Shown: positions 1-58,700 of the stretch, piece after piece
How positions within the stretch are numbered: position 1 is the stretch's first letter
Layout of the letters: the number at the start of each line of letters is the position of its first letter
Source of the DNA: Tetracentron sinense
Taxonomy: Eukaryota; Streptophyta; Magnoliopsida; Trochodendrales; Trochodendraceae
Length of the DNA: 64,000 bases
Assembly (NCBI GenBank): GCA_015143295.1
Contig: CM026553.1
Location: forward strand, 2,565,912-2,629,911
Direction: 5' to 3'
Position numbers and translations under genes: made by a program
Notes under the pieces: model-generated
The model's input: the letters and a program-made list of their open reading frames with translations, nothing else
Database searches by the model: none
Told to the model about the DNA's origin: nothing

Positions 1-483
1 TAATGTTTATGATATTACTATCTAGTGGTTTGTACACGCTGAGTATTCCATGCTCAGCCGTACATATTATGTCGGCAGGTCCCTTCGACATTTGTGGCGA
101 GCGTCCTCAAGAACCATGGGTCGAGGAAGAGTATGTTGAGGAGGAGGAGACTTGGGGTAGTCTTCAGCAGCAGAGGGCTCAGGAGGAGCAGAGGGCTTTT
201 GTTAGGTGGCCCCATCATGAGTGACTAGAGGGAGAGACATGTACATATATTTTGTTGAGCGAGTATGTTCGCTCTTTATTTTGGGTCATGTATAAACTGA
301 GACATATAGTATTGATAGAAATTTTGTAGTCCGCTTCCACTACCATATATAGATTAGTATTACGCTTCCGCTATCACAGGTTTTATATGTTGTACGGGAT
401 TCATATGTTATATAGGATGGTTTGGTAATGAGTTCACGTCGCCAAAGTATCCTAACTACTAGGGGTTATTTTGGGTCGTGACA
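1..483 (+). repeat. 3' part of the 5' LTR of element A
   Basis: It matches 5375-5857 base for base apart from a few changes, for example C/T in the 'gtacacgctga'/'gtatacgctga' segment. It ends in CCTAACTACTAGGGG...GGGTCGTGACA, the terminal pattern of all chromovirus-type LTRs in this window, and is followed at once by the primer-binding site. Confidence 0.9.
69..224 (+). CDS. Conserved acidic LTR reading frame, element A 5' LTR copy
   Basis: A 51-codon frame from an ATG that overlaps a predicted splice acceptor (ATGTCGGCAG|GT). It contains PWVEEEYVEEEE and ends in WPHHE, and it is the same as the 3' LTR copy at 5443-5598. Related peptides occur in the LTRs of six other families here (see 15701, 33091, 37269, 41292, 53551 and 56671). 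I know of no named protein family that matches it. Whether it is translated is unknown. Confidence 0.4.
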   Translation: MSAGPFDICGERPQEPWVEEEYVEEEETWGSLQQQRAQEEQRAFVRWPHHE

Positions 484-4175: not shown

Positions 4176-5452
4176 GTAGATACACTCTACTAGGTTATAA
4201 TTTCATAAACCCTTAATGAAAAGCATGATTTTCTTGACAAGTAGAGACATAGATGGCTTTGGATATATGGAAATGCACCCTTCTAGCTATTAATCTCATG
4301 AAACCCTCTTCTATACTAAGATAAAATCCATTGAATGATGATCTGAGTTAAATGTGATGATGCTATGCTTTCAACCAACAAATAAAAGACGGTATTTATT
4401 GAGATGTTTTATATATTAGTATCCAAATACGAGAAGCATGTTAAAAACCACAAGTTTTGGGGAAAAACAAAAGAGAAAACCTTATTTTCAATGTGATTGG
4501 ATGATGTAATGTTATTGCATATGGATTATTGTGATGGGTGAATTATGTTAAGCATTAGCTATATGATCATATGCAAAGTGTTTCCTTTAAATGTCTACTA
4601 TGTTATATCACAATTGCTACACGGACACATACGCATATGCATGATCGAGTTTTTCTATATTATGGGTATCCAAAAGAAGAAGTACATGTATATAAGATGC
4701 AATACAAGAATAAGAAGAAGAAGAGTATAAGACGCAAATGAATTACATGAAAAGTATAAGATGTAAATGAACCACATGAATAGTACAAGAAGCAAAAGAA
4801 GTATAAGAAAAGTACAAGAAGCACAAGATGTATACGGAAAGCATAAGAAGCACAAGATACATACGGAAAATACAAGAAGCATAAGATGTTACAAGAAATA
4901 CAAGAAGATGGAAAGTATACGGAAAAAGCCGACAGGGATGCGACGATAGCAGGCCGCTTGAAAGGGAAAGGGATACTGGCATCGGACTCCGATGATAGCA
5001 GGCCGCCCGGAAGGGAGATGGATATTGGTCGTCTACCCTTGAGGTAGCCGAATGTGAGGAGAACATTAGGCCACCCAGTTTACGTGGGTACAGGTACTAG
5101 TTGTCCTACTCCGGAGGTAGCAAATGATGAATACCAAGGTATTTTAAATACCCGTACAGGATAATAAAAGATAAAAGCCAAGGTATTTTAAATACCCGTA
5201 TATGCAAAGGTATAAGATGAAAAAAAAAGATGATAAGAAGATGTAAAAGACAAAAGATGATAAGAAGATGTTTTCCGGTAGTATTTTCTGAGATATATGC
5301 ACATGATATGATTTTGTTTTCCGCGCTGACTTCAGAAATGCATGTGAAATGATAAACCGTGATATATGTTGGATTAATGTTTATGATATTACTATCTAGT
5401 GGTTTGTATACGCTGAGTATTCCATGCTCAGCCGTACATATTATGTCGGCAG
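4176..5452 (+). other. Predicted leader intron inside LTR A
   Basis: The donor CATAAG|GTAGATAC and the acceptor TATGTCGGCAG|GT bound 1277 bp. A branch-point-like TGCTCAGC lies 25-30 bases before the acceptor. The same donor and acceptor contexts recur in LTR families B, C and D, at matching places. The call rests on conservation; there is no transcript evidence. Confidence 0.5.
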
Positions 5453-5598
5453 GTCCCTTCGACATTTGTGGCGAGCGTCCTCAAGAACCATGGGTCGAGG
5501 AAGAGTATGTTGAGGAGGAGGAGACTTGGGGTAGTCTTCAGCAGCAGAGGGCTCAGGAGGAGCAGAGGGCTTTTGTTAGGTGGCCCCATCATGAGTGA
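5443..5598 (+). CDS. Conserved acidic LTR reading frame, element A 3' LTR copy
   Basis: It encodes 51 residues from the ATG overlapping the intron acceptor. Motifs are MSAG at the start, FDIC, PWVEEEYVEEEE, a Q/E-rich middle, and a WPHHE end. The same PWVEEEY block, with many synonymous third-base differences, recurs in unrelated-looking LTRs of this window, which points to selection on the peptide. It is strongly acidic with no signal peptide or membrane segment. The position, after the promoter and upstream of the primer site, would put it in the 5' leader of the element RNA. Function unknown; chance conservation with the splice acceptor remains possible. Confidence 0.45.
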   Translation: MSAGPFDICGERPQEPWVEEEYVEEEETWGSLQQQRAQEEQRAFVRWPHHE

Positions 5599-5863
5599 CG
5601 AGAGGGAGAGACATGTACATATATTTTGTTGAGCGAGTATGTTCGCTCTTTATTTTGGGTCATGTATAAACTGAGACATATAGTATTGATAGAAATTTTG
5701 TAGTCCGCTTCCACTACCATATATAGATTAGTATTACGCTTCTGCTATCACAAGTTTTATATGTTGTACAGGATTCATATGTTATATAGGATGGTTTGGT
5801 AATGAGTTCACATCGCCAAAGTATCCTAACTACTAGGGGGTATTTTGGGTCGTGACAAAAATA

Positions 5864-15317: not shown

Positions 15318-16122
15318 TGTAGAGCCCCGGACTTTTTCATGCTTAATACATGGCACTTTCGTAGCCAATTTGCCTTTAAAGTAGTACAATTAATAAATAA
15401 GAAAGAAATTGGAAATTCCGAAATGTCAGAAATGTTCCTTTTCGAAGTACGAACCCAAGGGTTTTCAAGCACAAAAATGGTACCTTAAGTCAAGTCAAGT
15501 GCACGGTGTTTTCAAGGGTTTTATCGGCTTTTATGAATGCAAGCATGATTATATACTTCTTTACTTTATTGTTATGATATGAATTATTCCTGCTTTATAT
15601 GTATGAATTGTTTCATGCTCTATGTATCGCTATCTGTATGCTATGACTATTGGTTAGTATTTGGTACCCGTTGAGTATTCCATGCTCAGCCGTACTTCTT
15701 ATGTCGGCAGGTGATAGTGGAGCGATTGCTCCTTTTGATGTCTGTGCTCCTGGCCCATGGGTGGAGGAGGAGTACATTGAGGAACCTTTGGAGGAACCTC
15801 CGGTAGAGGGCTACTATTAGGTAGTGGTTGTAGATTCTGAGTGATAGAGCTGTGGGTGAGTTGAGAGAGATGTATTCATGTATTTTGGTGGGCCTGTCTG
15901 CACTTTCTTTTGTGTATCTTTTTGTAAAAATTTGGATCATGTATGTATATACTTAGAGGTTTGTTAGACTTCCATTGTGCTATGTTATATGTTTCCGCTA
16001 TCGTGTCCTCTTTGTATATGCTTTGTGGGTTTTGCAGGATGGATTGTCAAGCAAGTCATGTAAGTCATGATTAGTCGTCCAAAGTTCACTCTAACTCCTA
16101 GGGTGGGTTTTGGGTCGCGACA
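15318..16122 (+). mobile_element. Solo LTR E (family B type) with large internal deletion
   Basis: It starts TGTAGAGCCCCGG and ends GGGTCGCGACA, flanked by the 5-bp duplication ATGAA (15313-15317 and 16123-16127). Both ends match LTR B, but about 1.4 kb is missing between GAACCCAA (about 15474) and TTTCAAGCAC, so the palindrome array, promoter and intron donor are gone. It interrupts the zinc knuckle codons of chromovirus I gag. The orientation is opposite to its host element. Confidence 0.95.
15701..15820 (+). CDS. Conserved acidic LTR reading frame, solo LTR E copy
   Basis: A 39-codon frame from ATGTCGGCAGGT: MSAG, then PFDVCAPGPWVEEEYIEE, ending VEGYY. It differs from the B copy (56671-56790) mainly at a few residues and several third positions. 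It has the same acidic block as families A, C, D, F and H. Confidence 0.45.
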   Translation: MSAGDSGAIAPFDVCAPGPWVEEEYIEEPLEEPPVEGYY

Positions 16123-24897: not shown

Positions 24898-26207
24898 TGA
24901 AAGTATGCCTCTTTTTAATTTTAGAAACACAGTTCTTGGGGGGCATACATCGAATCCCAAGATCTGACTAAGATTCTAATTGATTTTATTCAATTAAGAT
25001 AAGAATAACATTTACCTTTGCGACTTTGAAATTGTTAAGTCAAATCCACGTTAGAATAGTACTCGCAAAACTTCACAAGTGTCAAGTCTCTTGTCGATTC
25101 ACACGAACCTTCTTTTTCTATTAAAGCTTTCTCTAATGGAAGCTAATGGCCCTTCCAAATTTCCAGCTCTAAGAATCTTGAATAAAAGATCCAATCTCTT
25201 ATTATAAAGAACCTTTCTTGATTCTCTTCTTGATCTTCAAAATTAAGAACCCAAGAGAGAAGAAGATGGGGAAATATAGGGCTGATCGTACACCACTAGA
25301 GAGAGGGGCTGGGCGTATGATTTGAGGAGAGGGGAGAGGTTTCCAAATCTGGAAATTCTGGAAAATTAAAGAATGCCCAAAGTCTTGGATGTCCAACCCT
25401 CTTTATAGGCTTTATTGGTTGCTTGCAACCAAAGTTTCCTAATCCTTATCCAATAAGGATTCTTCAATTAGTTTCCTGTTTGGTTTCTCCATAATTAATT
25501 AGGAATAATCAAAATAGAAACTAATCTCATCCATTAGTGTCCAACTAATCTTATCCTTATCCTAATCCAATTAGGATTCCTTGATTAGCAAGAAACTAAT
25601 AGACTCCTTGTCCAACAAGGAATCTTTAATTAGTAACTAACTCTAACTAACTAACTAACCTTATCTAATAAGGATATTAGTTATTAGAAACTAATTAAAA
25701 TAATAAAAATTATTATTCCTCCTTGAAGTGGGTGTCCCACCCTAGGTGGGTCCCACTCCACACGTCCCTAATGGGTTCTAAACCCTTTTGGTCACTTTAA
25801 CTATTGTTTTAAAATATTCCCCAATGGGTCCTACCCATTCGGTTTTTCACATCCAATGTGATTCCACCTTTTAGAGCTTCACTATACCATATAGTGATTA
25901 CTTAGAGAAATTTATTAATGTAATTAATAATTAAATTAAATACTTTAAGAAGGTCCTTGTGTGTGGAATCTAAAGTGATCTCCTATTTCCGGTTGTGGGA
26001 CCAAGTACTTCACATTTTTGGTTGAAGCATTGTTAGTAGGAAGCACCTTTCCTAAAACTCCATTAGGATCATAGAATGTTATCTAAGTACCTGGACTTCC
26101 ACCAATCACATTAATGTCCATTAACACAATGTGACTGACCTCCAAAAATTAGAGAATTGCTTGTAAGTACCATCTCACAATATATTTACAAATAAATCAT
26201 TCCACAT
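24898..26207 (-). repeat. 5' LTR of the copia-like element, first ~880 bp missing
   Basis: Plus-strand TGAAAGTATGCC...AATTAAGA... is the reverse complement of the end of the 37824-40029 LTR (GGCATTCTTTCA). Homology runs to the equivalent of about 38700 and stops at 26207, where chromovirus II LTR sequence begins. The junction is a deletion, not an LTR end. Confidence 0.85.
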
Positions 26208-28031
26208 TCCATAATCAGAGTGCTGAAGAACATGTGCTCATATACATCATATCATCACATTGACTCATGTATTTGTGAGAACCTTAGACTTAAGAAACAA
26301 CATACTTATGAGATGCTTATGTTTATTAGACCACGTGCTTGTGAAATGCCTATGCTTATGCACTTATTCAGATCAGACACTTATTCAGATCTCTCATTGG
26401 GCTAAATCAGTATGGCAGGCATATGCAATGCTTGTGCTTATGAGTCTTGAGCAGCTTATTCAGAACATGCACTTATTTAGATCTCTCATTGGGCTTATTC
26501 AAAACATCAGGCGTATGCATTGCTTATGCTTGTGGTCCACATGTGTGACTTGTGAGACTCTTATCTTAACATATATGTGCATTTGTGTCATAATTAACAT
26601 TCGAATCAGTCAACGCTTAGATTCCGATTTCCCACCATGGAAACTCCACTATAATGTCCCATACAAAATAGTTAGAGAATTCCCGGTTTGAAAGATTTTC
26701 CTCTAAGTATTGACTTACCCGAATATCAATTACCATGCAAAATAGTTAGGCATAATTTAACAAACAATCACATGTATAAACCTTATGATGGTTTTTAGCA
26801 TAATTCATAATCAATCTCTAACAATTCCATGGTGTCATATTAGTATTTACCATCTCAAGCATTTCAACAAAGACATTGGGTACATGAATTATGAATACAT
26901 TGCCCTTTCCCATTTCCAACATTTCACCACACCATAATCCATCCATACAATCTAAACACAATCTACATCCATACATTCATCTCATCCTCCATAGTATTTC
27001 CCATCCTCCGTACATTCCATCCATATTATTAAACCACATTTTCATCTATAATTGCTTAATTCATACAATATTGGAAAAAAACATATCTAATTTTCATTTA
27101 TATCATTTCTATCATACTAATATTCATAAAACATCATAATAGGGTTGATTTGGATAGTATATCGACCTTAGGGATCCTTCCCTTGGATCCAAATCGCTCC
27201 CAAGAAGATTTGAGGAAGATCTCCAAGGTCTCCTTATAATTTCCAAGCTATTTTCTTCTTCTCCAAGAAATTTCTCCCTCAAAACCCTACGTTTCCTCTT
27301 CTCCTTTGCCAAATTAGGTTAGAAATGGTTTATAACCATAAAAACCTTGAAATAGAACCCCAATTTGTAGCCCCAAGAGTTAAAACCCAAAAAACGTGAG
27401 TTTTTAAAAAAATTTGGGTGCGCGTGCAATCGATCGCACTATAGGTGCAATAGATCGCACTTATACCTGAAAGAAACTCCAAAACTCGCTTGTATGCGAT
27501 CGATCGCATCACAGTCCCTCCTCGGATTCCAATTGATTTTTCTCTGCTTTGGTATTTTGACCATAAGGCTTGACTCTCTTATCAGATTTTGACGATTCAA
27601 CTTGTGTTGGACTCGTCTTTGAAATGGGAACAATTTTGTCTCTAATGGAGAAATCTTAATTCTAAGGTTTTAATTGTCTAAAAGGGGTCTAAAGCTGACT
27701 GGTTTGGAATTTCAACAGGCAAAACATCGGAAAACTCACTTTTGAGTTAGCTTAGACTCAAAATCTGGAAAAACATTAAACATAAACCTCGAAGAGGGTT
27801 CTAATACATTTCTAATGGTTCAAGAATCACTCGATTCAGATAAGCGGTCACAAAACTAAAACTTCCTAAAGTTGAGGGTATGTTAAGACATCCCTCTCCT
27901 TTACAACTTTGACTAAGCCTTGATCGCACCACACCAATTAGATAGAAATGCATAAGCATTAAAATATCACAAAGACTATTATACCCATAATACTTGCATT
28001 AAAGGCATGAAAAAATATTCAGGTCTCTACA
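26208..28031 (-). repeat. 3' LTR of chromovirus II, end deleted
   Basis: It is homologous to 33308-35146. It keeps the perfect palindrome GCGATCGATCGC at about 27496-27507 and the intron donor CCTAAG|GTCGATATAC (about 27173). It lacks the acceptor, the acidic frame and the terminal block, which were lost in the deletion that joined it to the copia-like LTR. Confidence 0.85.
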
Positions 28032-33090: not shown

Positions 33091-33213
33091 CTAATAGGGG
33101 TAACCATCAAAACCTCTAGCTCCCTCCTTGGAAGGTTCACCTTCTCCTCCTTCTTCAACGTAAGCCTCCTCAATCCAAGGCTCAACCACCGACTTTGGCT
33201 CCACACCTGCCAT
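33091..33213 (-). CDS. Conserved acidic LTR reading frame, chromovirus II copy
   Basis: A 40-codon frame from ATGGCAGGT, overlapping the intron acceptor GGCAG|GT. It reads MAGVEPK, then EPWIEEAYVEEGGEGE, and ends GFDGYPY. It is one codon shorter at the start than the A-type copies but in the same frame. The YPY end matches the WPY/YPYY ends of the C, F and H copies. Confidence 0.42.
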   Translation of the reverse strand: MAGVEPKSVVEPWIEEAYVEEGGEGEPSKEGARGFDGYPY

Positions 33214-34258
33214 GACAACAGTCTGGCTAAGTACAAAAGCACTCGGTGTATATAAAATCCAACCAACATAGTATACCTGCACTTAGTTAGAACCATATCC
33301 AATAGCATAATAACATAATAAGAGTGCGGAAGAACATGTGCTCATACACATCAAATCATCACCTTGACTCATGTACTTGTGAGAACCTTAGACTTAAGAG
33401 ACAACATACTTATGAGATGCTTATGCTTATGAGACCACGTGCTTGTGAGATGCTTATGCTTATGCTTATGCACTTATTCAGATCCCTCATTGGGCTTATT
33501 CAGTATGACAGGCATATACAATGCTTGTGCTTATGAGTCTTGAGCAGCTTATTCAAAACATGCACTTATTCAGATCCCTCATTGGGCTTATTCAGAACAT
33601 CAGGCGTATACGATGCTTATGCTTCTGGTCCACATGTATAACTTGTGAGACTCTTATCTTAACATACACGTGCGTTTGTGCATAAGTGTCGCAATTAACA
33701 TTCGAATCGGTCAACACTTAGATTCCAATCTCCCACTATGAAAACTCCACTATACTATCCCATACCAAATAGTTAAAGAATTCCCGATTTGAAAGATTTT
33801 CCTCTAAGTATTGGCTTACCCGAATATCAATTGCCATGCAAAATAGTTAGGCATAATTTAACAAACAGTCACATGTATAAACCTTATCATGGTTCTTAGC
33901 ATAATTCATAATCAATCTCCAACAATTCCATGGTGTCATATTAGTATTTGCTATCTCAAGAATTTCAACAAACACATTGGGTACATGATTTATGAATACA
34001 TTGCCCTTTTCCATTTCCAACATTTCACAACACCATAATCCACCCATACAACCCAAACACAATCCACATCCATACATTCATCCCATCGTCCATAGTATTT
34101 CCCATCCTCCATACATTCCATGCATATTATTAAACCACATTTCCATCTGTAATAGCTTAATTCATACAATATTGGGGAAAAACATATCTAATTTATATTT
34201 CTATCATACTAACATTCATAAAACATTATAATAGGGTTGATTTGGATAGTATATCAAC
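33207..34258 (-). other. Predicted leader intron inside LTR D
   Basis: The donor CACTAAG|GTTGATATAC and acceptor GTCATGGCAG|GT bound 1052 bp. The branch-point-like TACTTAGC lies about 25 bases before the acceptor. The intron holds runs of ATGCTTATG(C/A)TTATGA. Confidence 0.5.
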
Positions 34259-36400: not shown

Positions 36401-37659
36401 TCAAGGTCAATGATAAATCTATTTTAGGGTTATTATCTTTAAAAGAAATGTAATGTGGGCATGATGTTGATGAAATAGGCTTAATGACCAAGATTATTGT
36501 GATGTGATGTAATGCCATGAATGAAGATGTTCCATGTTTTAGGAATTTTCCAAGTAAATGATGATGTTAATATGTCTTGTATGAACATGTAGTGGATGTT
36601 TAAAGCTTTCCATATATATTATGATGCTCACAAGCACTCCACACACGCTACGTTTCCATAACCGAGGTTTTCTCATAAGCATGATATTTCAAGAATCATA
36701 AGAAAGGTTTTTCAAAGGAAAATTATAAGTAGAAGCATACGTGCATAAGCATTGACAAGGCCAAACTTTGCATTGGTATTTCTAAGATCGGTTACCTCAT
36801 GCTCACAAGGATCAAGTCTAAGATCTTGCATAAACTCCAAGAATCATAAGTCTCGCAAGGCTTCTAAGAACTCATAAGAAATGCATAAGTCTAAGATCGG
36901 TTACAAGGCTCATAAGTGCTCACAAGCTCTATGCATCATGTCTAAGATCTTGCATAAGTCTCCAAGGATCATAAGACTCGTAAGAACTCATAAGCTTACA
37001 AGGAACTCGTAAGAAATCATAAGCTCACAAAGAACTTGTAAGAACTTATAAGCATACAAGGAACTCATAAGAACTCATAAGGCATGTATAAGGTGTTTTG
37101 TTTTCCACGAAAGATAAGATTTGACTAAAGGTTTTCTATAATGGGTTTTAAGCATGAATTTTATGAATGGTATTCCTTTAAGTACTTGCATGCGATATTA
37201 TTGTCATTATAACATTGTTAGCTAGTAGATTGTGTTCGTTGAGTATTCCATGTTCAGCTGTACATTTTATGTCAGTAGGTCAATTCAATATCTGTGATCC
37301 CAGTCCGTGGGTCGGGGAGGACTACGACGAGGAGGAGCTGGTAGAAGCTCAACCAAAAGAGGATTGGAACTTGGATAGGTGGCCTTATCCTAAGTATTAT
37401 TGAGAGTGGGGGAGAGAGAGAGAGAGATTACATTGTATTTTGAGTGAGCGGGCATGTCCACTCTAGTTTTGAGTTATTATTGTACAAACTTGGAATACTA
37501 ATCATGTATAGAAAGTAAAAATTTAAGTTTACGCTTCCACACTATTCTACATTCCGCTATGTTATGCCTTGGGTATTTTACAAGATGGTTTGGTATCGAA
37601 TATAGCACATCACGAGCCAAGGTATCCCTAACTCCTAGGGGGTATTTTGGGTCGCAACA
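36400..37659 (+). repeat. LTR F, chromovirus type, 3' part
   Basis: It ends AACTCCTAGGGGGTATTTTGG followed by GTCGCAACA. Upstream are the acceptor block (GAGTATTCCATGTTCAGC...GTCAGTAGGT), the acidic frame, and an intron-like stretch with many CTCATAAG repeats (36780-37100). The LTR start is not recognisable, so the copy is probably truncated. Confidence 0.7.
37269..37403 (+). CDS. Conserved acidic LTR reading frame, LTR F copy
   Basis: A 44-codon frame from the ATG overlapping the acceptor: MSVG, FNICDPSPWVGEDYDEEE, and the end WNLDRWPYPKYY. It keeps both halves of the conserved peptide, the PWV-acid block and the LDRWPY tail. Confidence 0.45.
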   Translation: MSVGQFNICDPSPWVGEDYDEEELVEAQPKEDWNLDRWPYPKYY

Positions 37660-40600
37660 ATTTCATAGTTCTGGTACTAGTAAAAGCTCCTAAGAATGCT
37701 AGTATGTCTCTCCATTTTATAGTTCGGGTACTAGTAAAACTCATAAGACTCTAGTATGTCCGTCCATTCATAGTTCGGGTACTAGTTAATATATGTAATG
37801 CTAATATGTCCGTCCATTCATAGTGTTAGACATGTATGCCCACAAAGCCATTCCGGAATTGTATTAATCTATTTTTTAAATTAATAAATACATATTTTAC
37901 ATTCACACATTGTCTTCTACATTGGGTAATATATCGAAAGTATCTCATTGGATGAGACTACTTTGTCCCTTAGGTAACATTGTAGGAAAACCATCCAATT
38001 AGTTGATAATTGATTGCTAAGGAGATATGGTTTTTTCGGTTCCTTGTTGACCTAAAATTGTTCTAAGTTAATCAGGATACATTTGGACAATGTATTCCTA
38101 ATAACTTACACATTGTTAGTTCCATATGATGGAGTGATGAATCTCAATCACTGAGAGAAGAGTCTCTTGACTAAAATGTGGATATAAGTAAGAAGTACTT
38201 ATATTGCAACTAGATCGCTCAGTGGATACCCTTAGAAATATACTGTCTTTATATTTAGGGTAGTCCATTTGACAGATTGTCCTTAACCTGAGAGGTCAAC
38301 ATCTTCTCTAGTATTTGCCTATGTAGCTTTGATGTAGCCAATCGTCAATGTCCAACACACCGGACTAAATACGGGCTCGTTGGGTTATGTACACTGTACT
38401 GGAAGAAGTGTGTGTACGCTCGACAAGGATTTCACTACTCTTACAGAGTAAATAATATTGAGTTGATACTTGTCAAAACCGGACTTGAAAAACCCAGCGC
38501 TGGTATTTATTGATGAAATGGTTTTATCGAGGAATTTATTTTCTTTATAAAAGAAATGTAATAATAATTATTATTTCTTTTAAAGAATTTTAAAATGTTT
38601 TTGCAAGTCCAAGTTTGACTAAAAGTATCAAAGAGAATGGGTTCTCAATATAAGCCAAGGATTAAAGATAGTATTAGATATTGTCCCGTAAGCTTATAAC
38701 AATATTGGAAGTGGAGGGACTGATCTGTAAACAAATCTTGAGATAGAAATACCTGCAAGTAATTCTCTATTTTCTGGAGGTGAATCACATTGTGTTAATG
38801 GACATTAATTGTGATTGGTGGAAGTCCAGGGATATAGATAAAATTCTATAATCCTAATGGAGTGTAGGAAAGGTGTTTCCTAGTAATAATACTTTAACTA
38901 AAAGGTTGAGTACTTGGTCCCACAATTGGAAATAAGAGATCCTTTTAGATCCCACACACAAGGACTTTCTTAAAGTATTTAATTTAATGATTTATTAAAT
39001 TAATTAATTTCTCTAAGAAATCACTATATGGTATAGTGAAGCTCTAAAAGGTGGAATCACATTAAATGTGAAAAACCAAATGGGGAGGACCCATTGAGAA
39101 ATTTGATAGAAGATCAAATAAGAGACCAAAATGGGTTTGGAACCCATGGGGGCGTGTGGAGTGGGGCCCACCTAGGGTGGGACGTCCACTTCAAGGAGGA
39201 TAATGTTATTGTTTAATTTTTAATTAGTTTCTAATTAATAACTCCTTATGAGATAAGGTTGGTTAGTTAGTTAGTAATTAAAGATTCCCTAATTGTTAGG
39301 GATTCCAATAGTTTGTTACTAATCATTAATTAGTTAGTTATTAATTAAAAAGATTCCTTATTGGATAAGGATTTGGTTAGTTAGTTACTAATGGATAAAA
39401 TTAGTTTCTATTTTGATTAATCCTAATTAATCAAAGGAGAAATCAAAAAGGAAACAAATGAGAAATCCTTATTGGATAAGGATTAGGAGATTTGGGTTGC
39501 AAGCAACCCAAGTAAACTCCTATATATAGAGGTGTACGGTCACTTTAGTGGAGACAAGAAAAATTTCCAGAATTTTCAAGATTTGGAAATCCCTCTCCTC
39601 CCTCATTATCTCTCACGCCCAAGCCTCCCTTCTCCCTAAGGTGTACGGTCACACCTTCTCCCCTTTTATTCTTCCTTTTGTTTTCTAGTTTGAAAATAAA
39701 AAAGAGGAATTTCAAGGTTCTTGAAGATCAAGATTAGATCTTTTATTCAAGATTCCTAGAGCTGGATTTTGGAAGGGCCATTAGTTTCCATTAGAGAAAG
39801 CTTTAAAGAAAAAGAAGGTCCGTGTGGATTGCGAAGGAGACTTGGCACTTGTGAAGTTTTGCCGGTATTGCTATTATCGTGGATTTGTGTTAACAATTTC
39901 AAAGTCGCAAAGGTATTGTGATTTTAACTCTCATTGAATAAAATCAATTAGAATCTTAGTCAGATCTTGGGATTCGATGTATGCCCCCCAAGAACTATTT
40001 TTCTAAAATTAAAAAGAGGCATTCTTTCACATAGTTCGGGTATTAGTAAAGTATGTATGAAACTTGTATGTCCGTCCATTCATAGTTCGGGTACTAGTTA
40101 AGTATGTGCAATGAAGAATGCTATGCATGTTCGTCTAGTTTATAGTTCGGATGCTAGCCAAATGAAATAAGTGAACTAAGACTTTCATAAGATGCTCATA
40201 AGGAACTCATAAGATGGGACTCATAAGAAGTATAAGGGATTCACCAGACTCATAAGACTAATAAGGAACTCATAAGTCTACAAAGGTGCTCATAAGCTAA
40301 GTCTCATAAGATGCTTATACTCTAAAACTGGTAAGATGCTCATAAGCCAAAATCTCATAAGGAATCTCATAAGGAACTCATAAGGAACTCATACGATATC
40401 CAAATACATTATGATTCAAATTATGCACTTGATAATTGAATATGGTTTCCACACTCTGATTATGCATGTGATATGATGAACTGTACCCAATATGACATGT
40501 AAATGTTTTATAACATTTTTAGTTAGTAGTTTGTATACGCTGAGTATTCAATGCTCAACCTTACATTTTATGTCGGTAGCTACACAGGTAGATACACGCG

Positions 40601-40967
40601 CTCCAAAACCATAAGTCGATGAGATATATGTCGAGAAGCTGATAGGCAGTTATCATGAGGATGATAGGGACCTTGATAGGTGGCCCTATTGACGAGTTGA
40701 TGAGAGGGAGGGACATGTATTTTGGGCCTTCATTTTGGGATTTTTGTATCGATTGAGCTGGTAACTCAAGCAAAAGATCTGATGTACGTTTTTAGTATTT
40801 GATTTAGCCCTTAGTCTGATTCTTGTACTTGGAATACAATTGATATAAAATGAGAAATTTTCAGGTTCACTATTTAGATTGCCTTATATTCTCTTTATAG
40901 GTTGGTTTGAATGTAAGTCACGATGCCAAAGTCTCATAACTCCTGAGTGGGATTTTGGGTCGTGACA
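37660..40967 (+). mobile_element. LTR G, chromovirus type, interrupted by a solo LTR
   Basis: 37660-37823 continues at 40030. Both sides carry a tandem repeat of CATAGTTCGGGTACTAGT (units about 51-65 bp), followed by CTCATAAG repeats, an acceptor block (GAGTATTCAATGCTCAACC, about 40542), a broken acidic frame (PWV changed to P plus stop, but RDLDRWPY kept at about 40665-40690), and the terminus GGGTCGTGACA at 40967. The start is lost or hidden by LTR F. Confidence 0.7.
37824..40029 (+). mobile_element. Copia-like solo LTR (2206 bp) with target duplication
   Basis: It starts TGTTAGACATG and ends GGCATTCTTTCA, flanked by CATAG at 37819-37823 and 40030-40034. It is the same family, in opposite orientation, as the LTR at 24898-26207. 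There is no internal sequence, so it arose by LTR-LTR recombination. Confidence 0.95.
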
Positions 40968-41592
40968 TCTCACAAGCACATTCACAAGAATTATCATGTT
41001 ATATGTCATTGGAGAATATCATGTTACATATATTGTCAAAACATCTTACATGCATTGATCCATATGGATATCAGAATTTACATGAATATGCACATGTCTA
41101 CACAAGTCATGAGTCTCAACATGCCATGAATGATGATTATATGTGTACATGTTTCCGCACCATGAATTGTAAGATATGTTTATTTATGATACATCATGAC
41201 CATAATCACATGATATGATATTTAGCTAGACTTTATATACACTGAGTGTTTTCAATGCTTAGTCGAATTGTTACTATCGGTGGGTTCATGAGGATTTGAC
41301 ATCTGCGCTCCGGGACCTTGGATTGAGGAAGAGTATCCCGAAGAACAAGAAGGTGACTATCAGGAGGGACATATTGATTTGGACCACTATCCGTATTATT
41401 GATCCATTAGTTAGTTAATTGTTTTTATTTTAGTTCTGAAAGAGTTGTGAAAGGGTAATTTTAAAGTTGATGTTGCTTAGGATTAAATTTTGTAATTGGG
41501 ATCATTGGATTATTCCGTTAGTTGGTCAACAATTGCAATAGTTTATATTGATTACGGAATTATAATTAATTCTAAGGAGAAATTTCGAGACA
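40968..41592 (+). repeat. LTR H remnant, chromovirus type
   Basis: After LTR G ends, sequence continues with an acceptor-like block (GAGTGTTTTCAATGCTTAGTC, split here: the last base overlaps the next word), then an acidic frame (FDICAPGPWIEEEY, ending DLDHYPYY at 41402) without an in-frame ATG, and a very decayed terminus (TTCTAAGGAGAAATTTCGAG) at about 41590. It is the oldest of the three nested LTR ends. Confidence 0.6.
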
Positions 41593-43155: not shown

Positions 43156-44950
43156 TCATCTAATAACTGATGCCCCTATTCTATTATGAAGCTTCATTTT
43201 AATACAATCATGAATTAAGGCACCGCTCTGGATCATGATATTAACTCTATCCTCCAGGAGTGATTGATGCTCAATCTTCGTGAGGATGGACCTTTCAAGT
43301 TTGGCTGATTCCTCAAATTTATTTCTGCCAATATCATCACTTGAGAGGATTGGCTTTGTTTCATAAACATTTGACATAATATCACTCATAATATCAACTG
43401 TCGAGCTTACAATTTGAAGCTGATAGCTAGCCTTTGAAAGCATACTCTTGAGAGTCTAAACATGGTGCTACTGTTCCCAGTTCTTGTAGTGAAGATCACT
43501 GGATCAAATTAAAGAGCTCGTGCTGCTACCACTATACGGGCTAGGCCTCTTCTTTCCTAAGAAACTGTTGTCACTGGTCATCAAATACCCATCAAAGGAT
43601 GATCTGCCCATTAGTGAAGGTTGCATCTCGAGTTGCTCTTCTCTGTATATGTGCATTTCTTGTTGGGATGGAACGTTCATGGCTCCCATGTGGACGCCTC
43701 CATGGTCACCGACACCCTTGTAGCTTTCCGAGGTCATGTTTTCACAAGAAAGCGTTTGGCATGCTTTCTCCAGTATAGTTCGCATATACTTTCCTTGAGC
43801 CTCAATCCTCAACTGAAGGTGTCTTTGTACCTTTCATTACAAGACCCGAAAAGGATTTAGCCAAAATTTGCTGAACCATGTAGTTGTGTGGGAACGAGAA
43901 AATTAGTGATGTGCTTACCTCTAATTGTTCATGCAATCTCCTTTGTACTTCCATTTGCATCCTAAGTGCTTCGTTGATGTGTACGCTCCTGCTAAAGCAT
44001 CAAATATACCAACCAACATGAGTATAATTACCATTGTTAAAAATTCGGAAATTGATCCTAATTTTGAATAACACAAGCCTTTATGATCAATCTGAACCAA
44101 TCTACAAATGGTTGCAGCAATGGAAGATTGTGGTAATTACGTACTCATTCATGCTGCGACCCATTATCCCGGATGAAGAAGCAGCATTCCTTTGAAGATC
44201 TAATGCCGAAGCTGCCATGAAAATTGAATTAGAAAATACCAACTGATATTAACTAAGCGAGAGAGAGAGAGAGAGAGAAGAAAGGAAGAAGGGCGTATAG
44301 CAACACTTATAAGAATAATAACCTCTCTCACCATCTATAACTGAGTGATCATTGAATTCCTTATGTGGTTGCTTCCCGAGCCTGAATTTCTATCCAAAAA
44401 AGAAAAGGAAACACGACCGGATCGGAGATGGAAAGCATTATTACAGTGCAGATAGAAAAACAAAACACATGAAACTTTTTTTTTTTGGAAGGTAAGCTGC
44501 GGTTAGGCAGACCCCTACCAGAGAAACATAGGCGGGAATCAATCCCAGCTCCCTGGTACGACGCCAAGGGACTTTACCAACTAAGCTAGCTGAAACTTTG
44601 GTTCTATACATACCTGAAGATGGCTCTTAAGATGGTAAAGAGTGAGCCCCTTGACATTCATAACTCTCATGATGGACTTTGGTGTGGCCTCTACAAATTT
44701 GGACAGAAAAAAATCATAAATGATAAAGAAAAGAGATCATGAAGACATGAATTATGATTATGAGAGTGTTAGAATGGTAAGTACTATCTGGTCCTCCGAG
44801 CTGAGTGACGGCATCAACGAATCGATCATGAAGCTCAACAGTCCATCGGAGGCGAGGCTTTGGGTCAGTCGTGAGGACAAGCCCAGAATCCCCTTGAACA
44901 CACATAGGTCTATCATGTGAATCCATATTAAGCTTCTTGGGATGGAACAT
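43156..44950 (-). pseudogene. APL: APL-like MYB-CC transcription factor gene, C-terminal exon broken
   Basis: Six exons: 44950-44785, 44690-44614, 44389-44323, 44211-44145, 43988-43919 and 43830 downward, all with GT-AG introns and matching phases. Exon 1 starts MFHPKK and holds LVLTTDPKPRLRWTVELH; exon 2 completes the MYB domain with SIMRVMNVKGLTLYHLKSHL; exon 3 has KFRLGKQPHKEF; exon 5 holds the MYB-CC coiled coil (MQMEVQRRLHEQLE). This order fits the APL/PHR-like family of phloem-identity and phosphate-response regulators that bind DNA as dimers. In exon 6 the reading stops at SSLI (stop at 43504-43506, where relatives have Trp), and further C-terminal sequence continues in shifted frames (LQELG near 43480, then LQIVSSTVD near 43410). 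The DNA-binding and dimerisation parts are intact, so a truncated protein of about 250 residues is still possible. Confidence 0.85.
44479..44590 (-). mobile_element. Au-type SINE in intron 2 of the APL-like gene
   Basis: On the minus strand it has a tRNA-like head with A box (GCTAGCTTAGTTGGTAAAG) and B box (GGATTGATTCCC), then GGTAGGGGTCTGCCTAACCG and an A-run. It is flanked by TGAAACTTT at 44470-44478 and 44591-44599. The pattern matches plant Au SINEs. The right flank is 15 bp from the exon 2 donor. Confidence 0.85.
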
Positions 44951-45147
44951 TCTATCTCAGCTGCTCCTAGCTCTAGAATAGGAAAAGATTCAGGAACAAA
45001 AGGGACGGATATGGGAGGAATAGGGTGAGTTCTTAAAGGAGAGAATGGCTTGGTTTCTCTAGTAGAACGTATGGGTCATGCCAACCATGTAAGAAAAATA
45101 TAGAAGATAGGAAATTAAAGCTCACCGACTCCATTATGCAGACCCTA
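44951..45147 (-). promoter_or_regulatory. Upstream region of the APL-like gene
   Basis: Sequence between the start codon and the MITE at 45148. No clear TATA box. A 5' intron is possible. It is short because a MITE lies close upstream. Confidence 0.3.
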
Positions 45148-52053: not shown

Positions 52054-53550
52054 TGTAGAGCCCCAGACTTTTTCACGATTAATGCATGGCACTTTCGTAG
52101 CCATTTTGTCTTTAAAGTTATACAATTAATAAATAAGGAAGAAATTAAAAAAATTTCAACACATCAGAAATGTTCCTTTTCGAAGTACGAACCCAACGCA
52201 AGTTGAATCGTCAAAATCCGACGAACGAGTCAAAAGATATGGCCAAAACAGTTTGGACATGCAGACCACCGAACGCTCGGTCCATGGAGCGATCAATCGG
52301 TAGCTATCGACTGGTCAAGATTTTTGTATGGAGAAATTTTCCAAAGAGTATATTTTTAACCGATCGCTCTGTATCGACCACCGATCGATCAGTGTATCGT
52401 GTTTTGCAGAAATTTCAGTAAGGGTGTTTCGGTCTTTTGGCATTTCACTGTTTACTCTTAAGGGTTGCCCGAACCTTTAGGGATCATTTACAACACTTAG
52501 AGACATTTGAGAGTTAGAGAAAGAGGAGAGGGCGATTTCTAACCTAGGGTTTCCATTTGGGGAAGAAATCAAAAGGGGTGAAGACTTAGATCAACCTCAA
52601 GCCCATTTTCTTCAAGATTCAAGCTCAAGAACTCGTGGAGCTCGTGTTCCAAGCTAGGGCAGCGCCTCATGAGCGTTTTTGGAGGATTTTTCTTCCTCAT
52701 TGATCAAGGTCGGTACTTCTTGCTACCCTCCTAGTCATAGTTCCTCTTTCCCTCCATGTTTCTTTGTTTTCCTTCATCTATGCTTGTGCTATGAGTTGGG
52801 ATGTGTGGATGTTGTGAATGGAGACGGAATGGGCGATTGGATGCCAATGGTTGTGTTGTGATAATTGAAATGGGGAGGGCACTGTATCCATAATGAACAA
52901 ACATGTATGATGAAATTATAACCCACCTAGAAAAGCATGTTGTAGGGTTAACAAATAATGAACATACCATGTTTGATGGAATGCCAAGGTGAATAAAATG
53001 AATAATAAATTAAGAAAATGCATGCTTAAAGTTTATAGAAATTGTTTGGGTTATGATAGTGTGTTTTTGCGCTTTCCCTAAATTGTTTAATTTTTTACTT
53101 GTTTAAATGATGATGTGCAATGTATTGTGAAATCCCCAAACATGTCATATTTAAATTCAATTGCAAGTATGCACACGACTTCTATGAGCACGGCATGCAT
53201 GACATGATTTATCGTATTTTCAAGAACATGATTAGAGTTGGGACATATCCTACGATATGTTTTACCTCACTTTTTATAACGCCCCGAAATACCCCCTAGG
53301 TGTTTAGGGATATTTTAGGTGTCACACTACGTACCTATCAAACCATCCTGTAATGCACAAGATAAAATACAGTACTAACAACGATAATCAGAGCACGGAA
53401 GCTAACATATATGCGGAAGCTTAAACAAATTTTCATTTCTTCTGATGATCCAAAATAGTATTCCAAGTTAACATAAATACAAGACATGTCTAAGTCTAAG
53501 GTGGACAGGCCCACCTATCAAAATACACAAGACCCTCTCATACTCTCCCC

Positions 53551-53667
53551 TCAACAGTAGTCGAGGTATGGCCACACATCGAGGTCTCGGTCCGCCTGAG
53601 ACTGTAATGGAATAGCCGGCTCTCTCTCCTCTATATACTCTTCCTCGACCCAAGGCTCCCTCAGTAC
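53551..53667 (-). CDS. Conserved acidic LTR reading frame, solo LTR C copy
   Basis: From the acceptor junction the frame reads EPWVEEEYIEEREPA and ends DRDLDVWPYLDYC at 53551. The ATG overlapping the acceptor is out of frame here (a small deletion in between), so translation would need another start. Both conserved halves are retained. Confidence 0.35.
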   Translation of the reverse strand, partial: VLREPWVEEEYIEEREPAIPLQSQADRDLDVWPYLDYC

Positions 53668-53939
53668 CTGCCGACATGAAAGTACGGCTGAGCATGGAAT
53701 ACTCAGCGAATAGTAAAAACACACAATAGTAATATCATATAAGCAGTAATAGAAACATCACAAAAGAAACAGTATAAGGCATGATACAATACAAGCATCC
53801 TGACGTGCGTACATGAATGCGAAAACGCCGATAAAACTCATGCTTGAAAACCCATGTCATGTCCCGGTATACCTCGTAGAAATCATGTATGCGTGCATGC
53901 ATGAATGCATGATCATCATCTTGTAAACCTCCATCTCGT

Positions 53940-54296
53940 AACTTGTTAGCCAGAGGCTAGCACCCGAATCTCCCTGGGCTGCCAACCTCCTTGATATGCA
54001 ATGCACTTGTGAGCCAGAGGTTAGTACCCGAATGTCCCTGGGCTACCAACCTCCTTGATATGCAATGTTTGGTTTTCTTGTGAGCCAGAGGCTAGTACCC
54101 GAATGTCCCTGGGCTACCAACCTCCTTGACAATAGGTGATTTTTATTACTTGTTTAGTTTTCTTGTGAGCCAGAAGTTAGCACCCGAATCTCCCTGGGCT
54201 ACCAACCTCCTTGACAATAGGTGATTTAGGGGTTATCTTGTGAGCCAGAGGCTAGTACCCGAATGTCCCTGGGCTACCAACCTCCTTGACATGCAA
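53940..54296 (-). repeat. Five tandem copies of a ~60-90 bp unit in the intron of LTR C
   Basis: Each unit (plus strand) reads TTGTGAGCCAGAGG(C/T)TAG, then CACCCGAAT or TACCCGAATG, then TCCCTGGGCTACCAACCTCC and TTGA. Units start near 53942, 54007, 54077, 54160 and 54236. Confidence 0.9.
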
Positions 54297-55258
54297 TATT
54301 TTCTTGTTGTTTATTATATGCACATGCTCTTGAAATCTCGGTTCATGCTATCATGCGTGCTCATGTGCGTGCCAATAATAACAATCGTGGGAATGCGCTT
54401 AACAAAAGAGATATGACATTACAATTCAATTCATAATATTAGAATAGGTAACTTAAGTAATTCACATGACATTGGATCAATTCATCGTCTATAAGAACAC
54501 ATGCATAAAACCTATTTCCATTTCCTTCATCTAAGTCGTTTATTCATAGTTTAGGCATTTTGTCAAACACAACACATGAAATGTTTCTTAATAATTCTTC
54601 TTGTTCCTTTTAGCGCATATTTTCCATCCAAACATCAAGGTAAGTTCATTATTGGTAAAATACCCATCCACCATTTCCATCACACACATCACACAACCTA
54701 CATCTCGGCATCCAATCGCCACATCCAACATTCCATCCACACATCCACACCTTTTCCGTTATCTTGTTTATATTTAATGGGGGATAACACATTTCATAAG
54801 GAGGAAAACATAATATAAAGAATCACATTTTTATATAGAAAACCTAGATTATTGCTAGGGAAAGTTAGTAGGGTGTACTAACCTTAGATCAAGGCTTGAT
54901 CCTTGGTAGAAACCTTGATTGAAGCTCCAACTTGAAAGAAGAACACCTTTGGTTGAAGGAGACTTGAGTTGGGGAAGAAACCCCTTTCAAAAACGTGCTT
55001 GGGTTGCTGCCCTAGCTTGGGGAACGCTCTCCACGAGTGCTTGAGCCGTGATCTTGGAGAAAAACCGGACTTGAAGTGATCTAGGGTCTCAAAACCCCTT
55101 TGATTCTTCTCCAAAAGCAAAACCCTAGCTTAGGAAACCCTTTCTCCTCTCTTCTAATCCCCCAAATCCTCTAAGTGTTGAGAATGAGCCCTAAAGGCTC
55201 GGGTTAAACTCTTAAGGTAAGAGTGAACCGACCAAAAGACCATAATACCCTTACTGAA

Positions 55259-55790
55259 ATTTCTACAAAAACATGAGTGCCGAACACGTTGAGCTGTGAA
55301 TAGTGCCAAACACGTTGTGCTGTGAATAGTGCCGAACACGTTGTGCTATGAATAGTGCCAAACACGTTGTGCTGTGAATAGTGCCAAACACGTTGTGCTG
55401 TGAATAGTGCTGAACACGTTGTGCTGTGAATAGTGCTGAACACGTTGTGCTGTGAATAGTGCCGAGTACGTTGTGCTATGAAGGGTGCTGAACCCGTTGT
55501 CACGTTGTGTTGTGCATAGTGCTGAGCTCGTTGTCCGTTGTGAATAGTGCCGAATACGTTGTGCTGTGAAGGGTGCCGAACCCGTTGTCACGTTGTGTTG
55601 TGCATAGTGCTGAGCTCGTTGTCCGTTGTCTTATGTACAACGTGCCCATTGTGAGCTGTATAACGTACACGTTGTTTGCTGTACAACGTACACGTTGTTT
55701 GCTGTACAACGTACACGTTGTCTGCTGCACGACGTACCCGTTGTCTGTTGCACAACGGATGCACAACGTATACGTTATCAGAGCTAGAGC
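55259..55790 (-). repeat. CGTTGTGCTGTGAATAGTGC repeat array in LTR C
   Basis: Seven to eight copies of a 30-31 bp unit (AACACGTTGTGCTGTGAATA, GTGCC) at 55279-55480, then looser CGTTGT-rich repeats. It occupies the place that CGATCG palindromes hold in LTRs A, B and D. Confidence 0.92.
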
Positions 55791-56670
55791 TACGTTATCA
55801 GAGTACGTTGTCTATGTGTTGTCTGTGCCTTATCAGAGCACGTTGTCAAAGCACGTTATCAGAGCAACGTCCTTAGTGCCTTCCGAGCTACGTCCTTAGT
55901 GCCTTCCGAGCTACGATTGCCTGCAGGTCCAGACTGTTTTGGCCATATCTTTTGACTCGTTCGTCCGATTTTGACGATTCAACTTGCGTTGGGTTCGTAC
56001 TTCGAAAAGGAACATTTCTAACATTTCGAAATTTCTAATTTCTCCCTTATTTATTAATTAGACTACAAAAACGGCCAATTAGCTACGAAGGTGCTATTCA
56101 TTAAGGATGAAAAAGTCCGGGGTGCTACACTTTTCACAAGAAAACAAGAACAAACATTCCACGAGGGGTCTCCCCTCACTCACAAGTGCATAGCATAAAG
56201 AAGGGTCTCCCTTTCCTCGCAAGTACATACATATCATGAAGAAGGGTCTCCCTTCCCTCTCAAGTGCATTGCATAAAGAAAGGTCTCCCTTCCCTCTCAA
56301 GGCATCTCACAAGCGCATCTCACTAGTACATCTTACAAGTGTATCTCACAAGTTACATGATCACAAGCAAGCACGTATGACATGCATGACATGACACGAT
56401 CTACAAGAATCAAGCAAGATAGACAAGACGAGTATTCAAGCATGAAAATGATACTTTAAGTCAAGTCAAGTGCACGGTGTTTTCAAGGGTTTTATCGGCT
56501 TTTATGAATGCAAGCATGATTATATACTGCTTTACTTTATTGTTATGATATGAATTATTTCTGCTTTATATGTGTGAATTGTTTCCTGCTCTATGTATCG
56601 CTATCTTTATGCTAGGACTGTTGGTTAGTATTTGGTACACGTTGAGTATTCCATGCTTAGCCGTACGTTT

Positions 56671-56790
56671 ATGTTGGCAGGTTCTGAGGGAGCTGCTACT
56701 CCATTCGATGTCTGTGCTCCGAGCCCTTGGGTGGAGGAGGAGTACGTCGAGGAACCTTTGGAGGAACCTCCAGTAGAGGGTTACCATTAG
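56671..56790 (+). CDS. Conserved acidic LTR reading frame, element B 5' LTR copy
   Basis: 39 codons from the ATG overlapping the acceptor: MLAG, TPFDVCAPSPWVEEEYVEE, and the end VEGYH. It lies about 300 bp before the primer-binding site. The matching 3' LTR copy lies beyond the window. Confidence 0.45.
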   Translation: MLAGSEGAATPFDVCAPSPWVEEEYVEEPLEEPPVEGYH

Positions 56791-57100
56791 GTGGGTGTAG
56801 ATTCTGAGTGATATAGCTGTGGGTGAGTTGAGAGAGATATGTCCATGTATTTTGGCCAGCATGTCCGCACTTTCTTTTGGTTTCCTTTTTGTATAAACTT
56901 GGATTTACGTATGTATATACGTAGAGGTTTGGTAGACCTCCGCTGTACCATGTTAGAGTATGTTTCCACTATTTTTATCCTCTATTGTATATGCTCTGTG
57001 GGTTTTGCAGGTTGGTTTGTCAAGTAAGTCATGCAAGCTATGATTAGTCGTCCAAGATTCACTCTAACTCCTAGGGTGGGTCTCGGGTCGCGACAAGAAA

Positions 57101-57118
57101 TGGTATCAGAGGTTAGGA
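57101..57118 (+). promoter_or_regulatory. Primer-binding site of element B
   Basis: TGGTATCAGAGGTTAGGA lies five bases after the LTR end. It is tRNA-iMet complementary with one mismatch (AGAGG for AGAGC). A 333-bp leader follows to the gag start. Confidence 0.88.
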
Positions 57119-57451: not shown

Positions 57452-58700
57452 ATGAGGTGGGGCACACGGGGTCGTGGACCACACACCAGAGCTTCATCTT
57501 CTTCTAGAGATGAGGATGAGCAGCCGGACCTCTCTCAGGTCTTAGGCTCTATTGATGAGACACTCGCCATACTGGCGGGTCGGCAAACTATACCATCATC
57601 AGCGGCACCTACTCCACCGCCTATGGCTTCAGTACATCGTACAGCTGGGGTTGAGGCAGTCAGGAGATTGAGGCCTCCATCATTCCATGGGAGTGTGGAC
57701 CCTCTTGCTGCGGAGGCGTGGATCCTCCAAATGGAGAAGATCTTTGTGATCCTCTCGCCCACAGAGGAGGATAGAGTAGCATGGGAAGTTCTCATGCTAG
57801 AGGACGAAACCCACCATTGGTGGTTATCAGCATTGAGGACGCGAGATTTGACCATACAGGGTCAACCTTGGACTTAGGAGGAGTTCAAGGATACTTTTTA
57901 TAAGAAGTACTTTCCTGTTGGAGCACGGGAGAAGAAAGAAAGAGAGTTCATTAACCTAGAGCAAGGTTCGATGACTGTGGCCGCTTATGAGACTAAGTTC
58001 TCGGAGCTATCACGCTTCACGACTCACATGGTTGCTACCGAGGCAATGAAAGCGAGAAGATTTGAGCAAGGGCTCAAAGATGTTATCATGGAGAAGGTTT
58101 CGGTTTTCAGACATGCTACCTACCCTGAGGTAGTAGACAAAGCCTTATTGGTCGAGGCGAATTCCGAGGCCGTGTCCAAGAAGAGGGAGTTGGCGAGAGG
58201 CCAAGCCAGTAGTTCAATATCTCCAGAGAGGCGAGCTCGTACCGGCCCTTATCAGTACACGTGGCCAGCACCACCGATGAGGCCATCTTATGCGCCTCCA
58301 ATTCCACGGCCATACATGCCTCAGGCACCGCAACCTCAGGCTCTTCCAGCTCCACGGCCAGTTCCACCTCAGACGGTGAGGTATGCTCCACCTCTGGCCC
58401 CTCCGACCTATACACATGAGGTCTGCACTTCGTGCGGTTGAAGGCACCCGGTAGGAGATTGCCGAAGGGCATTGGGTGGATGTTTTCAATGTGGTCGCCA
58501 GGGCCATGTGATTAGGGATTGCCCCAGTCGGCATTTACCAGGCCAGTCTCAGGGGATTAGGCCCCCAGCACGCCCAGCAGGATCATACTAGGCGTCATCC
58601 CAGACTACCCGGTCTACACCTCCACCTCGCCAGGCGAACCATGGGCGAGTTTTGGCCTTGACAGAGGGTGATGCACTTGCATCTGATGATGTGGTGCAAG
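57452..58700 (+). pseudogene. gag: Element B gag with three stops
   Basis: It starts MRWGTRGRG. The capsid domain holds VRRLRPPSFHGSVDPLAAE and HHWWLSALRTRDL, then FYKKYFPVGAREKKE, AAYETKFSELSRF and FEQGLKDVI. A long Pro-rich linker follows (about 58250-58420), then two zinc knuckles, one starting CTSCG and one CFQCGRQGHVIRDC. Stops fall at 57875 (Trp codon in relatives), 58439 and 58589; the rest of the frame is open. The end SDDVVQG meets the intron donor at 58701. Gag would assemble the particle and bind RNA; this copy cannot make it whole. Confidence 0.88.

Follow-up and report, generated by a model that had tools for sequence, protein, structure and literature searches.

Plant long terminal repeats (LTRs) are treated as regulatory DNA, and the acidic reading frame at 56,671 of the 64,000-nucleotide stretch of the Tetracentron sinense genome analysed here (hereafter the window) raises the question of whether such a repeat can also encode a protein. 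Frames with the motif P-W-(V/I)-E-E-E-Y occur at nine places in the window, which correspond to eight distinct loci and approximately seven LTR types (Table 1; the loci are designated by letters). All the frames listed in a preliminary description can be read where it placed them, and the LTR types differ in how independent they are of one another. Judged from sequence comparison, the reading that we regard as slightly more likely than not is that a real peptide, approximately 39–51 residues long, is encoded in the 3′ part of the LTR and would be translated from the leader and act in trans.

The peptides share a layout in which a loose N-terminus precedes a conserved acidic-aromatic core (PWVEEEYVEE); a variable linker follows, and most families have a DLDxWPY motif at or near the stop. 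The tail motif is found at six loci, among them the broken copy K, where the RDLDRWPY noticed earlier is indeed present, and it is absent from C and G. Each of the seven window peptides contains 10–13 acidic, 0–4 basic and 4–8 aromatic residues, and three of the eight loci (H, I and K) are broken. A degenerate DNA pattern of the core (up to three mismatches) matches eight places in the window and none of 100 dinucleotide shuffles contains as many, a result that speaks of rarity and is no independent test, given that the pattern was derived from the same copies.

Table 1. Positions of the peptide frames, hairpins and related features in the window.
Feature	Position	Strand	Remarks
Peptide ORF G	56671..56790	+	39 aa, MLAGSEGAATPFDVCAPSPWVEEEYVEEPLEEPPVEGYH, intact; in-frame ATG
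Peptide ORF C	15701..15820	+	39 aa, intact; same LTR family as G
Peptide ORF A, 3′ LTR of element A	5443..5598	+	51 aa, intact
Peptide ORF A, 5′ LTR of element A	69..224	+	peptide identical to the 3′ LTR copy
Peptide ORF D	33091..33213	-	40 aa, intact; in the 5′ LTR, gag-pol pieces present in the element
Peptide ORF E	37269..37403	+	44 aa, intact; NLDRWPY tail
Peptide frame H	41292..41402	+	36 codons; retains core and tail; start codon lost, in-frame stop immediately upstream
Peptide frame I	53551..53667	-	core and tail kept; ATG at 53677 out of frame, 32-base gap relative to G
Broken copy K	40570..40692	+	in-frame ATG at 40570 and tail; core Trp codon is a stop
Hairpin G	56641..56661	+	9 bp; ATG 27 bases after GAG
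Hairpin A	5412..5432	+	z -4.7 over 36-base stretch
Hairpin A, 5′ LTR copy	38-58	+	conserved hairpin
Hairpin C	15670..15690	+	z -4.9
Hairpin E	37238..37258	+	z -1.2
Hairpin I	53687..53707	-	z -5.2
Hairpin K	40539..40559	+	7 bp, z -2.8
Hairpin H	41241..41263	+	10 bp, divergent sequence, z -1.6
Hairpin D	33229..33244	-	6 bp, divergent sequence, z -1.2
LTR G, 3′ half	56130..57095	+	first half at 52054-53274
Splice-acceptor-like TGCAG-GTTGGTTTG	57006..57019	+	near end of LTR G
PBS-like TGGTATCAGAGG	57101..57112	+	after LTR G end
gag region, element G	57452..58441	+	single frame interrupted by a stop at 57875-57877; second piece matches Retrotrans_gag

The carriers are likely Ty3/gypsy elements of the chromovirus type. 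Matches to Retrotrans_gag, RVP_2, RVT_1, RT_RNaseH and SH3_Tf2-1 are distributed over six ORF pieces from three elements. A Chromo match (Pfam, E 0.075; 13.4 bits, below the cut-off of 25.1) follows the integrase in the C-terminal piece of element G, and none was found in the other two C-terminal pieces scanned. The elements are probably Del/Tekay-like, a label that we take from their VQILDRR-type tail. Gag and pol pieces lie downstream of the peptide-bearing LTRs G and D only; searches with the element pieces (tblastn) detected none beside E, H and K, and C and I are situated inside other elements. The sequence TGGTATCAGAGC, presumably the primer binding site (PBS) motif for initiator Met tRNA, occurs with 0–1 mismatches at 488, 57101 and 32815(-), that is, behind LTRs A, G and D, and no PBS-like site was seen behind the LTR ends of C, E, I and K.

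The two A copies belong to the LTRs of a single element (98.6% identical over 483 bases), which has LTRs at 1–483 and 2310–5857 (the latter of 3.5 kb) and an internal region at 484–2309. In this element tblastn detected no gag or pol beyond a 23-residue protease-like remnant at 1910–1978, and it looks like a recent, non-autonomous element. C and G represent one LTR family (87% over 674 bases) to which I is related, both at the LTR start (83–88% over 216–227 bases) and in a second part (76.5% over 307 bases); the stretch of I from hairpin to core also aligns well with G. LTR G (52054–57095) is in fact split by LTR I, which runs on the minus strand from 56129 to 53275, so that one peptide-bearing LTR is nested in its relative. 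Similarity between A and both E and K reaches 74–78% over 85–163 bases. The statement that the surrounding LTRs are very different is accurate for most of their length and fails for the hairpin region upstream of the peptide and for parts of the last ~90 bases. The peptide occupies the 3′ part, as can be seen from its start in G (56671, with the LTR end at 57095) and in A (5443, with the end at 5857). Two other features were noted in the window: two 1.3-kb repeats that face in opposite directions, at 24898–26211 (-) and 38706–40029 (+), 80% identical, with a PBS-like site after the first and no match to the motif scan in either; and, between retrotransposons, pieces of a gene at 43507–44956 (-) for a transcription factor of the plant-specific MYB-CC family (Myb_CC_LHEQLE, E 2.6e-12, and a weak Myb_DNA-binding match). 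These gene pieces and the elements themselves point to a plant host.

The way in which the codons vary indicates that the peptide is what has been kept. Over the 10 codons of the core in eight loci, mismatch at codon positions 1, 2 and 3 is 0.154, 0.143 and 0.532 (0.113, 0.127 and 0.500 without C and K), and a column permutation of codon position gives p 5e-5 with seven loci, C being omitted. The core in frame has a pS of 0.91 and a pN of 0.116, and the resulting pN/pS of 0.127 is reached by none of 5000 column shuffles; this estimate uses six loci (A, D, E, G, H and I) and omits C, which belongs to the family of G, and K, which has a stop in the core. The two other sense frames give ratios of 2.1 and 1.7. 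Coding on the antisense strand was considered and rejected: its frames give 2.0, 0.43 and 2.3, and the 0.43 frame has stops well inside five of the seven ORFs (in C and G they fall within the last three codons only), while the frame with the ratio of 2.0 is open in five of seven. The coding signal of the tail appears weaker than that of the core, with a pN/pS of 0.39 (five loci, K excluded), a permutation p of 0.014 (six loci) and 28 synonymous against 50 non-synonymous codon differences. The sample behind these values is small, comprising eight loci of approximately seven LTR types that come from one window and are related by descent. The suggestion, made initially from silent-site variation, that selection acts on a protein is sustained by the ratio of the core, by a frame that is kept across indels and by the rejection of the other frames, and protein-level selection on the peptide can be regarded as very probable.

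Relatives outside the window are few. When eight window peptides were compared with 5.8 billion predicted proteins, P0001 (47 residues, E 5.8e-7) was the only one of 49 candidates to pass an E of 1, in a search that reaches proteins of similar length only and would miss fusions. A second relative, P0002 (48 residues), was found with an alignment of P0001 and two window peptides, and a third search of the 5.8 billion proteins returned the same two. Both read M-F-x-I-L-A-(G/S)-E-Q-L-D-Q-C-A-P-x-P-W-V-E-E-(E/D)-Y-V-E-E-P-A-E-x-L-P-T-E-D-D-Y-H-P-D-Q-W-P-Y-P-x-H(-Y); they differ from all window peptides and join core and tail in one layout, starting at their own ATG 16 codons ahead of the core. Each lies on a contig of ~750 bases without context. 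Pfam contains no family that matches seven window peptides, P0001 or P0002, the PDB has no chain that matches the nine-row profile, and Rfam gave no match for the window. In collections of viral and prokaryote contigs, which do not include plants, the hairpin described below was found 0 and 0 times; the core pattern was absent from the viral contigs, and the peptide patterns marked 9 and 291 stretches, none of which was confirmed by tblastn.

Just upstream of the peptide, all eight loci have a hairpin, GCUGAGUAU-UCC-AUGCUCAGC or a variant with changed pairs. The 9-bp form is present in A, C, E, G and I, and versions with changed bases in K, H and D. The sequence GAGTATTCCATGCTCAGCC occurs at seven places (six loci, A twice) with up to three mismatches, against 0.01 expected by chance. 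In a fixed register of nine pairs, 69 of 72 cells pair, the register of H being shifted by one from its best fold; taken singly, the hairpins of D, E and H would not be convincing. Mean mismatch is 0.26 in the hairpin region and 0.33–0.53 in 25-column windows over the ORF (C omitted). Another ATG lies inside seven of the eight hairpins (all except D). The hairpin may be a separate RNA element or part of a core promoter. A TATA-box reading of the region was set aside: TATATACA stands just before the hairpin in D and H and is absent from the other six loci (A, C, E, G, I, K), for which reason we assign no start site. Behind the ORFs there is a second hairpin-like stretch (for example, at 5600–5660 and 53480–53550(-)) near a shared TATTTTG, with GAGCGAGTATGTTCGCTC in A and AGGTGGGCCTGTCCACCT in I, and it looks compensated between families.

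The ORF would lie within that part of the genomic RNA leader which derives from the LTR, where the ATG located 27–31 bases after the GAG of the hairpin opens the frame; translation of the full-length RNA would then make the peptide one of the first products, and its translation from the leader is probable. The product would be an intrinsically disordered acidic peptide, and a prediction for peptide E with nine aligned rows (AlphaFold2) yields no fold (pLDDT 67, pTM 0.15). The core is kept while its distance from the stop ranges from 11 to 26 codons in seven peptides, which points to a disordered peptide with docking motifs rather than to a ribosome-arrest peptide. The short motifs might dock in trans on a protein partner, such as a host factor, chromatin or Gag. 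A wider proposal, namely that a whole group of plant chromoviruses carries, behind a conserved hairpin, an unrecognised LTR gene for a disordered, acidic, trans-acting accessory peptide with one or two aromatic motifs, is more tentative and falls somewhat short of an even chance.

The strongest alternative is that the frame works in cis as an upstream ORF (uORF), in which case its translation or the nascent peptide would control the initiation of gag by arrest, reinitiation or shunting, and no action of the product elsewhere would be required. The gag frame of element G has its first ATG behind 24 others (counted from the hairpin ATG and including that of the peptide), so that access to gag must depend on splicing, shunting, reinitiation or some other route, and in such an ATG-rich leader the ORF could also work in cis. 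An ORF in this position would reduce scanning to gag, and it may couple translation with the use of the genome RNA. The hairpin near all eight ORFs favours this alternative too, as does the intact ORF that the LTRs of element A bear although no gag-pol was detected there apart from the protease-like remnant; a cis role or a recent deletion fits that ORF as well as action in trans does. According to the accessible portion of one source on plant pararetroviruses, leaders of the CaMV/RTBV type are structured and ATG-rich, and short ORFs together with structure govern their translation (PMC5902531). The leader discussed here resembles that description in its short ORF, its structure and its many ATGs. 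The first short ORF (sORF1) of CaMV and RTBV is very short, its length and the distance from its stop to the stem outweigh the peptide, and the stem comes after it, the layout typical of shunting; in the LTRs, by contrast, the hairpin precedes an ORF whose peptide sequence is conserved. It is also known that ribosome-arrest uORFs keep their conserved residues at a fixed spacing from the stop or the site of arrest and that acidic peptides are untypical arrest peptides. The core holds no set distance from the stop; only the tail motif is close to it, at 0–4 codons in the six loci that have the tail and in both outside peptides, and C and G are without that motif. On balance, a cis-acting ORF is rather unlikely, and the trans-acting peptide remains slightly more likely than not.

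Another explanation is that the conserved stretch is an alternative exon, with CAG-GT as its splice site, or part of a longer frame that enters from upstream through the hairpin, and that it belongs to another protein, for example, joined to Gag or Pol. Several features are consistent with it. CAGG or TAGG stands at the start of the frame in six of the eight loci, and the frame is open for 32–44 codons upstream of the core in seven (A, C, D, E, G, I and K). Near the LTR end, ~60–90 bases before it, there is an acceptor-like motif (TGCAG, TATAG, TACAG or TACAAG followed by (G)(A/T)TGG(T/A)TTG), which besides the G copy occurs at 411, 5785, 16033, 37579, 40896 and 53352(-), in total seven places in six loci and five families, with no match in D and H. 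There are thus hints of what may be a leader intron from the CAG-GT at the peptide ATG to this motif, and BARE has been described, in the accessible text, as having spliced and unspliced RNA pools (PMC3735527). The site contexts are weak, however, and the CAG-GT before the peptide fits a splice donor and an acceptor equally. The upstream open frame reads LSIPCSAV or a similar sequence through the hairpin in several loci. Six of the eight loci share the phase between hairpin and core, but G and H are out of phase, the phase of I is tied to its 32-base gap relative to G, and an in-frame ATG further upstream is confined to A, G and K; a longer ORF through the hairpin was accordingly held less likely.

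The position of the start codon also argues against an exon or a longer frame. The spacers between ATG and core measure 45, 54, 33, 36, 54 and 39 bases in six of the seven loci that have the ATG, each length being divisible by three, and 22 bases in I, whose ATG is out of frame; H has no ATG. The lengths therefore vary and the frame is kept, whereas the distance from the GAG of the hairpin to the ATG (28, 28, 31, 28, 27, 27 and 28 bases) is not frame-keeping. When I is aligned with G, the only gap, of 32 bases, falls between ATG and core, and the loss of frame in I therefore probably postdates the split from G. The ATG had been described as in frame in five families; this applies to five loci of four families (A, C, D, E and G) and to the broken K. 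A purine occupies position -3 in only two of the seven ATGs (A and D), which counts against the favoured reading. The spacers between core and tail (81, 66, 63, 60, 69 and 60 bases) are all in frame as well, although this phase is no free test, the tails having been sought in the frame of the core. The frame kept between ATG and core, the outside peptides, which begin at their own ATG, and the stop close behind the tail make an exon or a longer frame improbable.

Selection on the DNA or RNA itself, with the stretch serving as a purine-rich splicing enhancer, a protein-binding site or a reverse-transcription signal that is open by chance, is very improbable and appears already contradicted by the sequences. 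In its favour, the core lies behind a CAG and is rich in purines (GAGGAAGAG), and the hairpin next to it shows conservation at the RNA or DNA level. Conservation of the flanks equal to that of the ORF had been proposed as the sign of such constraint, and locally, at the hairpin, this is partly the case; the pattern differs, nevertheless, in that stems are kept there and codon positions in the ORF. Third positions account for most of the changes in the ORF, CCA/CCT/CCG and TAT/TAC among them, to an extent seen in none of the shuffles mentioned above, the frame from ATG to core survives indels, and the D/N-L codons of the tail vary (GACCTT/AACTTG/GACCTC/GATTTG). Between C and G, moreover, the DNA of the ORF is 82.9% identical against 93.7% in the upstream and 86.8% in the downstream flank, from which it follows that the DNA itself is not what is kept. 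Codons 14–39 of this pair, a range picked post hoc, have 5 changes in 16.2 synonymous sites and 3 in 61.8 non-synonymous sites (Fisher p 0.008; p 0.036 for the whole ORF), and the first 13 codons appear near neutral, since subtraction leaves ~8.8 changes for 29.7 non-synonymous sites and 3.2 for 9.3 synonymous ones. Least probable of all is a relic, that is, a peptide once under selection, for instance within a longer protein of the element or in a gene of the host, and now passive, for which one could invoke the three broken loci of eight and the missing matches in Pfam and the PDB, but the broken copies may be dead insertions and the core has been kept across LTR types while its synonymous sites came near saturation (pS 0.91, pN 0.12).

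Coding sequence inside an LTR has a counterpart in Sag of MMTV, a large membrane protein that is read from the 3′ LTR. Another comparison is offered by sORF1 and sORF2 of the MDG1 group of Drosophila LTR retrotransposons, which, as cited in the accessible part of a preprint, are small ORFs with low dN/dS ahead of gag; they are borne on full-length RNA with no sign of splicing, and their peptides have been found by proteomics for several MDG1 elements (PMC11952523). Compared by description, these proteins are longer (~110 and ~70 residues) and encoded upstream of gag, whereas the LTR peptides have 39–51 residues, are acidic and lie inside the LTR; sORF2 is a transmembrane protein, and the LTR peptides have no predicted fold. 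The combination of a transmembrane helix and a polybasic region that characterises sORF2 was not seen in them, and inspection of the peptides revealed no long hydrophobic stretch. Among plant LTR elements, Retrosat2, RIRE3, RIRE8 and FRetro3 possess an extra ORF (ORF0) upstream of gag-pol, and the LTRs of Retrosat2 and FRetro3 exceed 3.2 kb (PMC3485330, in its accessible text), a size comparable to the 3.5 kb of element A. Both are cases of extra ORFs in plant elements; ORF0, however, is longer (residue numbers run to 271), lies upstream of ORF1 and diverges between species, unlike the short LTR peptides (PMC3485330). Term look-up in the accessible parts of a survey of CRM elements and of a paper on plant LTR classification gave no passage on LTR ORFs. 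The peptide motif as text had no match in 5.39 million open-access papers, and no report of an LTR peptide was among the matches listed there, subscription papers being outside this scope. Accessory small ORFs of LTR retrotransposons are therefore already known, and what would be new here is the location inside the LTR.

A selected peptide inside the LTR would indicate an accessory gene of chromoviruses. It is well known that these elements fill large parts of many plant genomes, and, if the wider proposal is true, the LTRs of many plant elements that annotation lists as non-coding, among them solo LTRs, would represent a large hidden reservoir of small coding sequences. The peptide would thus give coding content to solo LTRs and alter the annotation of small ORFs in plants, and it would offer a handle on the balance between translation and packaging in these elements.
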